This document shows, piece by piece, positions 15,493 to 18,148 of a stretch of 43,706 nt of DNA. The position numbers and the translations under genes are program-made. The number at the start of each line of letters is the position of its first letter. The stretch's first letter is position 1. The DNA lies in the NCBI GenBank assembly GCA_938008205.1, contig CALLLY010000097.1:1-43706 (forward strand), read 5' to 3'. The notes beneath the pieces are model-generated. The model saw nothing but the letters and a program-made list of their open reading frames with translations, searched no databases and had not been told where the DNA came from. Source of the stretch: an uncultured Granulosicoccaceae bacterium. GTDB lineage: Bacteria > Pseudomonadota > Gammaproteobacteria > Granulosicoccales > Granulosicoccaceae.

Positions 15493-15498
15493 GTGTTA

Positions 15499-16875
15499 AT
15501 GAATATTTATTACCCGTGGAAAACGGGGAACACTAAAGCATGCGTGCTCGCCACGCTGTGCTGCTCGATTCTCGGTATCGCTCATGCGGAGACCAGCTTG
15601 TCGGAGACGTCTGTTGCGAATTTTACATTCCGTGACGGACAAACCCATACACGAAAAGTCTCCGAGATCGACGGACTGTTGATCGCTGAACAAGACATGA
15701 TTATGGGGACTGCAGCATCGGGTGCCCATACATCGAGACAGTTGAAAGGATTGAGCAACAGCACCTACGGTCGAGTGTGGCCGAACGGGATCGTTCCGTA
15801 CCGCCTCAGCACAAGTTTGTCAGACTCCGCCAAAAGCAAGGTGCGGGAAGCGGTGGATCACTGGAACTCCTTTAAAGCAGTAACACTTGTGGAACGCACC
15901 AGCGCCAATGCCAGCGCCTATCCCGACTACATCGATTTTGTCTACGAGAATCGGTGCGCCAGCTGGATAGGCTATCAGGGTAATGGTGCTCAGAGTATCT
16001 ACACCGGTGACAAATGCAGTACTGGCACATTGATCCACGAAATCGGACATGCACTCGGTTTGCTGCACGAGCACACCCGGTCCGATCGGGATCAGTATGT
16101 AAACATTCATTGGGACCGGATCGAAGAGGACATGGAAGTCAACTTCGAAATTATGGACGGCAGTGTTTTACTCGGTGAGTATGACTATGGCTCGATCATG
16201 CATTATGGAGAGTATTTCTTTTCCCGTAATGGATTGCCGACGATTGAACCACTGCTACAAACCGACGCTAGAATTGGTCAACGAATCGAGACCAGCCAGG
16301 GTGATCGCGATTCCGTCGCCGCGCTTTATCGCAGCAACCTGTTACTCAGCGCAACCAGTGACTTGCAGGCCGAGGCAGGCCAGCCAGTCGATCTGATCCT
16401 GCAGGCGACTAACATCTCGCAATCTGGCGCAAACTCCCTGTCCATCACTGTTCCGGTACCGGACAACACTGAACTGCTTTATTTCAGTTCTTCGTCCTGG
16501 TCTTGTGAACAGCCGGGAACTGGCGCGACGATTACCTGCAACTCCCCGGTGCTTGCTGTAGGAGCCAGTACATCTGTGACTCTAAACCTTTCTACACCGG
16601 CACAACCCGGCACAATCACCTGGGAAGCCACGCTGACTAACCGGACGCATGACACTGACCTGTCAAACAACAATGACAGTGCGACGGTCACTCTAGTAGC
16701 CGGCCCGGTCAATCCGACGATTAATCAGGATGCAACGCCGGAAATCGCAAGCGCGCTGGACGGTGGCGGGGGTACCGTTGGCCTGAAATTACTGGCATTT
16801 ATGGCACTTCTGCTTGCAGTGACAAAAGCCATTCAACCACAAGCTGTGCGGGTTGGAACACAGCGAGATCAGTAG
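15499..16875 (+). CDS. Secreted astacin-family (M12A) zinc metalloprotease with C-terminal membrane tail
   Basis: This looks like an exported zinc endopeptidase. I chose the ATG at 15499, eight bases after GGGG, rather than a GTG two codons earlier. Residues 1-30 form a signal peptide ending in AHA. The astacin zinc site is complete: H180, E181, H184 and H190, then E191 and RSDRD at 194-198, with the Met-turn SIMHYGEY at about 232-239. Residues 285-400 form a beta-rich repeat domain like DUF11/CARDB modules. The chain ends with GGGG (422-425), a hydrophobic stretch (427-441), and a tail with a few basic residues. That resembles a GlyGly-CTERM sorting signal, but the tail is longer than usual. 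The gene stands alone between smc and lpxB. Its substrate is unknown. Confidence 0.88.
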   Translation: MNIYYPWKTGNTKACVLATLCCSILGIAHAETSLSETSVANFTFRDGQTHTRKVSEIDGLLIAEQDMIMGTAASGAHTSRQLKGLSNSTYGRVWPNGIVPYRLSTSLSDSAKSKVREAVDHWNSFKAVTLVERTSANASAYPDYIDFVYENRCASWIGYQGNGAQSIYTGDKCSTGTLIHEIGHALGLLHEHTRSDRDQYVNIHWDRIEEDMEVNFEIMDGSVLLGEYDYGSIMHYGEYFFSRNGLPTIEPLLQTDARIGQRIETSQGDRDSVAALYRSNLLLSATSDLQAEAGQPVDLILQATNISQSGANSLSITVPVPDNTELLYFSSSSWSCEQPGTGATITCNSPVLAVGASTSVTLNLSTPAQPGTITWEATLTNRTHDTDLSNNNDSATVTLVAGPVNPTINQDATPEIASALDGGGGTVGLKLLAFMALLLAVTKAIQPQAVRVGTQRDQ

Positions 16876-16987: not shown

Positions 16988-18148
16988 ATGAAAATAATGA
17001 TAAGCGTTGGCGAAGCTTCCGGTGATATGCACGCCGCTAGCGCATTGAAACAGCTCAGGGAAATGAGCGGAGGAGCAATCGAAGCCTTCGGTATGGGAGG
17101 CAATAGACTCGCCGCCTGCGGCACCGAACTCCTTGTAGATAACCGACATCACGCGGTAATGGGACTGGTTGAAGTACTGCACAAGTATCCACAGCTGCGC
17201 GCAAATTTGTCGACTTTGAAAAAAGCAATGAAAGACCGCCAGCCAGACGTGCTGCTGCTGGTCGACTACCCGCACTTCAACATGAAGCTCGCGGTTGAAG
17301 CAAAGTCTCTGAACATTCCGGTACTGTATTACATCGCGCCCAAAGTCTGGGCTTCGCGCCCTGGGAGAATGCAGGAACTGACAGAAATTGTCGATCATAT
17401 GGCAGTGATCTTCCCGTTCGAAGTTGAGTTGTTCAACAGCGCAGGTATTACTACAACCTATGTTGGCAATCCTGTGCTCGAGAATGAAGCGCTGCTAAGC
17501 GCTCGTGAAAACCCTGTTGTTCCGAACAACACAATTGCGCTTCTGCCTGGCAGTAGAAAAAGCGAGATCAGTAACTTATTGTCGCCTATGCTTGCGACGG
17601 CAAAATTGCTGGCAGCTGAGCATAGTGATTTAAAATTTGTATTACCGGTGGCAGAGACACTGGACAAAACATCTTTACATGATGCAGTGACTGGAAGTGA
17701 CGTAAATATCGAATTGATTGAAGCGGCAGACTACAACAGACTGCGGCAATGCAGGGCTGCAATTGTTTCTTCTGGTACAGCAACACTTGAGCTTGCCATG
17801 CTTAATGTACCTATGGTGGTCGCATACCGTATGAATACGCTCAGTTTCAGAGTTCTGAAACGCTGGCTGACAATCAAACACATCAGCCTCGTGAATATCA
17901 TTGCCGAGAGAGAGGTGGTTCCTGAACTGTTGCAGGATGATGTCACTGCAGAGAAGCTTTACGATGAAGTGTCACGTCTAATTGATAACGCAGCTACTCG
18001 CGATCATCAGCTAAGTGGATTCTCTGAAGTATTCGATAAACTTTCTCGCAAGGATGTGAAAACCAATCTAGCCAGTGTATTGCTCTCTGTATACAAGCAA
18101 CGCGCTACTGCTGCACGGGAAGTAAAAGTAACTGCAACACAGAGTTAG
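16988..18148 (+). CDS. lpxB: Lipid-A-disaccharide synthase
   Basis: LpxB joins UDP-2,3-diacylglucosamine and lipid X into the lipid A disaccharide at the inner face of the cytoplasmic membrane. The 386-residue family GT19 protein shows the N-terminal GEASGDMHAA motif (about residues 8-17). The DYPHFNMKLA segment, the IAPKVWASRPGRM stretch around residue 120, the LPGSRKSEI loop, and the C-terminal SSGTATLELAM donor-binding motif are all present. It is convergent with lpxA, with only 13 bp between the stops. In E. coli and many relatives lpxB follows lpxA on the same strand, so an inversion or relocation has happened here. All active-site landmarks are intact. Confidence 0.96.
   Translation: MKIMISVGEASGDMHAASALKQLREMSGGAIEAFGMGGNRLAACGTELLVDNRHHAVMGLVEVLHKYPQLRANLSTLKKAMKDRQPDVLLLVDYPHFNMKLAVEAKSLNIPVLYYIAPKVWASRPGRMQELTEIVDHMAVIFPFEVELFNSAGITTTYVGNPVLENEALLSARENPVVPNNTIALLPGSRKSEISNLLSPMLATAKLLAAEHSDLKFVLPVAETLDKTSLHDAVTGSDVNIELIEAADYNRLRQCRAAIVSSGTATLELAMLNVPMVVAYRMNTLSFRVLKRWLTIKHISLVNIIAEREVVPELLQDDVTAEKLYDEVSRLIDNAATRDHQLSGFSEVFDKLSRKDVKTNLASVLLSVYKQRATAAREVKVTATQS

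Follow-up and report, generated by a model that had tools for sequence, protein, structure and literature searches.

The locus raises the question of whether the C-terminal tail of an astacin protease from an uncultured Granulosicoccaceae bacterium is a sorting signal of the GlyGly-CTERM type, to be processed by a rhombosortase, or simply a membrane anchor. The protease is encoded in a stretch of 43,706 nucleotides that was analyzed as a whole and is called here the window. The features of the gene and its surroundings are the following:

15493..16875, plus strand: astacin (M12A) and DUF11 protease gene of 460 aa, from the ORF list, with a GTG start and an alternative ATG at 15499
15493..15588, plus strand: putative signal peptide ending in ..GIAHA, assigned by inspection, with a helix at residues 14-27 in a low-confidence region of the model
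16036..16074, plus strand: zinc-binding motif HEIGHALGLLHEH, read from the sequence, with metal-binding columns invariant in a 40-row alignment
16198-16209, plus strand: Met-turn MHYG, read from the sequence
16360..16689, plus strand: DUF11 beta-sandwich domain, with strands at residues 283-402 and a pLDDT of 89-96 per block (AlphaFold2)
16988..18148, plus strand: downstream neighbour of the astacin gene in the ORF list, which we take to be lpxB by recognition

The protease is an astacin of the M12A type, as the match to PF01400 (157.4 bits, residues 96-280), the zinc motif and the Met-turn are all present. The profile search with the protease also identified the DUF11 domain (PF01345; 42.3 bits, residues 290-399), and ranks 1-21 of a PDB fold search with the protease model are occupied by astacins. 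Helices are predicted by AlphaFold2 at both ends of the protein (residues 14-27 and 431-446), the signal peptide being otherwise judged by inspection. The nearest homologues in named records belong to Granulosicoccaceae and to one Chromatiales MAG. The astacin gene lies directly 5' of lpxB in 22 of the 25 family genomes as well as at L147, a locus of another family, and lpxA is found near the astacin gene at L151.

The C-terminal region of the protease comprises three elements:

16762..16773, plus strand: GGGG signature of a GlyGly-CTERM-type tail (residues 424-427), read from the sequence and matched by tail profile A1 with an E value of 0.0545 in the genome
16783..16830, plus strand: predicted hydrophobic helix (residues 431-446; AlphaFold2, pLDDT about 75) that follows a disordered linker
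16831..16872, plus strand: extended, weakly basic C-terminal end, read from the sequence

The glycines are followed by TVGL-K-LLAFMALLLAV and then by TKAIQPQAVRVGTQRDQ, with the stop codon at 16873-16875. An earlier note had described the glycines, a hydrophobic stretch of about 15 residues and a tail with a few basic residues at this place. The layout is indeed found there, but the 15 or so hydrophobic residues include a lysine located five residues past the glycines, and the uninterrupted core, between K432 and K445, is reduced to 11 residues (433-443). The best 13 residues of the tail have a mean hydropathy of 2.55. The tail had also been considered longer and less basic than usual, in agreement with its last 17 residues, which contain only three basic residues and one acidic residue. 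The three-part layout of the GlyGly-CTERM signals (glycine motif, hydrophobic helix and basic end) is present, with a weak basic end. The signature motif contains no Cys, which agrees with the definition of GlyGly-CTERM given in the available parts of PMC3237569 and departs from MYXO-CTERM, in which a Cys is invariant.

The absence of a profile hit, of a rhombosortase and of other proteins with a similar C-terminus had been named in the earlier note as the three findings that would speak against its reading, and the first of them was made: TIGR03501 (cut-off 15.5 bits) matched neither the window tail nor the whole protease at E ≤ 10. Whole-genome searches with this model constitute weak evidence, since no control genome was matched in the first and 11 of the 14 controls were matched in the second (E ≤ 10), which also produced one match elsewhere in this genome (10.4 bits). 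Among 40 homologues, TIGR03501 matches eight at E ≤ 10, the best of which (L048; E 0.03, 15.0 bits) falls just below the cut-off, and an unrelated protein (L116) from G009, a genome of the same genus, passes it with 16.6 bits. MYXO-CTERM models match seven and five of the 40 homologues at E ≤ 10. The MYXO-CTERM cut-off is passed by L038 (17.4 versus 15.85 bits) and by the unrelated L104 (21 versus 20), despite the lack of Cys in the motif of both tails. That the tails of some relatives score equally or better on MYXO-CTERM models counts against a clean GlyGly-CTERM assignment. According to the portions of PMC3237569 at hand, TIGR03501 cannot find every true case, and homology running through trusted cases is used to add members. 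The window tail, outside TIGR03501 by its letter, yet looks to work like a member, and is best named a diverged variant. The missing match, the few basic residues and the lysine within the hydrophobic stretch would also suit a mere stop-transfer anchor in the inner membrane, that is, a decayed signal that rhombosortase no longer processes in this species.

The presence of a suitable enzyme argues against such an anchor. A rhombosortase, which the genome had been expected to encode, was found with a good score (TIGR03902, 159.6 bits; cut-off 84), and none of the 14 control genomes passes. Its translation holds GLSG and NAHLYG, which by analogy would be the catalytic Ser and His motifs of rhombosortase. 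Divergent from the rhombosortase gene run gspG, H, I, J, K and L and the first part of gspM; gspG, I, K and L are above cut-off in a profile scan, gspH is just under (77.8 versus 80), and gspJ and the partial gspM were identified by position. The type II secretion system (T2SS) anticipated for this genome was recovered in part: gspG-gspL stand beside the rhombosortase gene, but no match to the secretin GspD over its cut-off was found in this 87%-complete assembly, where the secretins scanned were PilQ (529.8 bits) and an MshL-like protein truncated by the contig end. A split gsp cluster is possible, because gspC-F were not recognised by eye, from the ORF ends, in the 20-kb stretches with gspG-gspN of four relatives.

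The association of the enzyme with the gsp genes is constant within the family. Rhombosortase is above cut-off in the 25 family genomes, and gspG adjoins its gene on the opposite strand in all of them (L001, L088:4283-5527, L059-L084). Outside the family, gspG adjoins seven of 34 rhombosortase loci (L078, L129, L130, L133, L135, L144, L145); the 34 are a non-random set, made up largely of top scorers, with flanks some 1.5 kb long. The 25/25 linkage is set against the view of Haft and Varghese (2011; PMC3237569), who, in the available sections of their paper, saw no sign of rhombosortase marking a particular T2SS subclass. Among the matches listed in the open PMC literature, none deals with a rhombosortase gene next to gspG or with astacins that bear a GlyGly-CTERM, and PMC10128026 names rhombosortase in its reference list alone. 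About a dozen of the 29 out-of-family rhombosortase genes (L117-L145) adjoin a gene that resembles glnD by eye.

Enzyme and protease also co-occur beyond the family. In a class sample of 369 genomes, rhombosortase was detected in 127 at E ≤ 1e-18 (126 above cut-off) and the protease in at least 13 at E ≤ 1e-8, a lower bound because first-look candidates were only partly scored in some genomes. Rhombosortase is encoded by 11 of the 13 protease-bearing genomes versus 116 of the 356 others (Fisher P 0.00023, uncorrected for relatedness, with nine of the 13 belonging to three families). The protease frames of the two genomes without rhombosortase at E ≤ 1e-18 (G065 and G143; 264 and 296 aa) end after the catalytic domain and have no tail. 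A third genome, G076, has a rhombosortase and a tail-less protease, and counts against a strict rule. The contrast between tail and enzyme rests on two genomes without rhombosortase because a phylum sample gave no further homologues (1 of 398 genomes at E ≤ 1e-20, the window's own match alone).

The tails of the protease homologues are in many cases clearer than that of the window protease. A strict rule (GG, a hydrophobic 13-mer and a net-basic end, with the loci chosen by tail profile, L004 and L091-L116, excluded) matches 36 of 59 astacin homologues versus 3 of 1149 ORFs outside the astacins and rhomboids. These three, a protein encoded on contig C466 of this genome and two JDVT-CTERM-like proteins, look like sorting-tail proteins too. 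The rule also matches 26 of 59 rhomboids, which are many-helix proteins and false positives, and misses 23 of the 59 astacins, including L007, the closest orthologue, in which charged residues open the hydrophobic stretch. With a looser rule, a glycine-type motif is found ahead of the helix in 52 of the 59 homologues. The stretch IASALDGGGG is identical at the protein level in the window and in L007, with four identical codons and synonymous changes in six of the ten, and the residues past it diverge between the two proteins. The tail pattern, as judged from these comparisons, is more than chance, and both the identity of the glycine motif across six synonymous codon changes and the retention of glycine-helix-basic tails in most homologues argue against a stop-transfer anchor.

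Another protein with a similar C-terminus had been predicted for this genome, and at least one is encoded there: a 487-aa DUF11 protein on contig C466 that carries GG and a long hydrophobic stretch. It shares 64% identity over 446 columns with L115 from G009, which has a clearer SGGGS tail; its own end is extended and poorly basic like that of the protease, a feature in line with a stop-transfer anchor. A weaker case is a reprolysin-like M12B protease with DUF11 on contig C31 (L165:1318-2910, minus strand), whose GIGG...YRRKRK end is missed by the strict rule. The DUF11 search of this genome gave eight matches on five contigs, and the tail was not seen on the DUF11-match contigs C444 and C363, with some ends of the C444 proteins lying outside the stretches read. 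Profile A1, whose members include the window protease's own tail, matches the window protease alone in this genome at E ≤ 10 and eight places in G009, six of which end in GG tails on reading. The GG-tailed proteins of G009 besides the astacin are of DUF2330, galactose-oxidase-like, DUF11 and unnamed types. A search of this genome for the tailed L116 protein of G009 found no tailed orthologue, with two weak matches, to the C466 protein and to a 401-aa frame on C315 that ends without such a tail. JDVT-CTERM-like proteins with GGGC..FDPL..RRR ends are encoded in G009 and G007 a few genes 3' of the gsp genes (L174:15775-16848, plus strand, and L177:6481-7758, minus strand; 26.7 and 24.4 bits, cut-off 27).

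The anatomy of the tail, a rhombosortase gene linked to gsp genes and the clearer tails of homologues are all observed here, and the tail is very probably a diverged GlyGly-CTERM-type signal of a rhombosortase substrate, the cleavage of which we infer. The earlier note had left open a choice between a GlyGly-CTERM variant and a plain membrane anchor; because of the clearer tails on homologues, the former is more likely, and a stop-transfer function appears improbable. By analogy with VesB of Vibrio cholerae, from which the order of the steps is borrowed (PMC6219818, in its available part), the protease would be exported by Sec and held in the inner membrane by its C-terminal helix. Rhombosortase would cut at the glycines, so that the helix and the basic end are lost, and the new C-terminal glycine may join a phosphoethanolamine-containing lipid. 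The T2SS would then carry the protein to the cell surface. The beta-sandwich may act as the Ig fold does in the secretion of VesB (PMC13393428, as partially available). Under this assignment, rhombosortase-type sorting would extend to astacin proteases of Granulosicoccaceae-like bacteria, a case that is missed by the curated model.

The variable linker ahead of the glycines contains a further element of possible significance:

16738..16755, plus strand: P-E-I-A-S-A in the linker, which may be a second rhomboid site, read from the sequence, with P-x-[FILVM]-[AG]-[AS]-A in many homologues (L005-L058)

The core [FILVM][AG][AST]A is present in the linker of 35 of the 59 homologues (shuffle mean 6.5, maximum 13, 500 shuffles) and in 28 of the 35 that are lpxB-adjacent (mean 4.2, maximum 11), and the linker pattern in 33 of the 59 (mean 2.5, maximum 9, 1000 shuffles); these core and pattern counts are post hoc, because the pattern was first noticed by eye. 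Related sequences inflate all counts of the motif; among 44 groups sharing no 7-mer, the core is found in 23 representatives. Better evidence than the post hoc counts is provided by a maximum-over-words test with a reduced alphabet, in which 'haaa' is the commonest four-letter word (31 of 59; any word reaches at most 21 in 300 shuffles), and by the Pro located two positions before the core in 31 of the 35 instances, a column that was not selected for. Rhomboid substrates have a hydrophobic preference at P2'. A second rhomboid cut in the window protease would read I-A-S-A|L-D. Positions P4, P1 and P2' are those recognised by rhomboids according to the accessible text of PMC2941825. In the excerpts available from PMC11389362, GlpG of V. 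cholerae cuts the VesB linker (P4 is F375, P1 is S378), does not accept I or V at the P4 position there, and has its site conserved in VesB alone among six V. cholerae GlyGly-CTERM proteins. The Ile at P4, not accepted by that GlpG, the Asp at P2' and the lack of a GlpG, by score, among the extra rhomboids of this genome count against the window site.

The linker motif could alternatively be the main cut site of another rhomboid, the protease being released in soluble form and the glycine motif playing a minor role. The P-x-[FILVM]-[AG]-[AS]-A pattern and the two further rhomboid-domain proteins that the genome encodes besides the rhombosortase would accommodate this view, which is nonetheless highly improbable in light of the eight hydrophobic-tailed homologues known to lie outside GTDB family f1 (L020, L147-L151, L157, L158): the core is absent from every one, and seven carry a GG-type tail. 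Moreover, both extra rhomboids fall below the GlpG cut-off (at best 30.8 versus 250), and P2', a position named as important in the consulted part of PMC2941825, would be Asp. With rhombosortase processing at the glycines retained as the preferred reading, we tentatively suggest, as a somewhat doubtful extension, that the protease family has two rhomboid sites in series, the linker motif (GlpG/AarA-like) and the glycine motif (rhombosortase), and that the order of cutting decides between surface anchoring and release. The sorting system itself is known, and the second possible cutting site ahead of the tail looks new. If true, the conserved two-site layout would mean that the anchor-or-release choice of VesB has been selected for, rather than arising as a by-product in the laboratory. 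With the linker motif, whether GlyGly-CTERM proteins are released physiologically by a GlpG-type cut becomes a question that comparisons and simple genetics can test. Two other interpretations of the motif were dropped: a part in a general sorting signal, as none was noticed on reading non-astacin GG tails, and autoproteolysis between the Leu and the Asp of SAL|DG, a sequence present in 4 of the 35 motif instances.

Among the closest known systems, the LegP astacin of Legionella resembles the protease in its catalytic domain. The match to the LegP astacin model (NF045530) reaches 218.4 bits, below the cut-off of 300, and the window protease differs in its signal-peptide-like start and C-terminal sorting tail. 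The MYXO-CTERM and JDVT-CTERM systems with their myxosortases (PMC11980579, in the part available) follow the same three-part logic, and some relatives' tails score on MYXO-CTERM models, but their invariant Cys is absent from the window tail. With the GlyGly-CTERM signals of TIGR03501 (PMC3237569, available in part), the window protease shares the three-part C-terminal layout, a motif without Cys and a TIGR03902 enzyme in the genome; by contrast, its tail fails to score and has a charged residue early in the helix. VesB and its rhombosortase RssP in V. cholerae offer a further parallel. VesB consists of a protease, an Ig-like domain, an unstructured linker and GlyGly-CTERM, as described in the available portions of PMC13393428 and PMC6219818. 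The window protease differs in being a metzincin, whereas VesB is trypsin-like, in a tail that is predicted, in the weaker basic end with a lysine five residues past the glycines, and in a rhombosortase gene that adjoins gspG. Within what these two sources and PMC11389362 offer in part, the two systems have in common a protease followed by an Ig-like domain, an unstructured linker, a glycine motif, a helix and a basic end, a rhombosortase encoded in the genome and, just a few residues ahead of the glycines, a linker sequence that may be a second rhomboid site.
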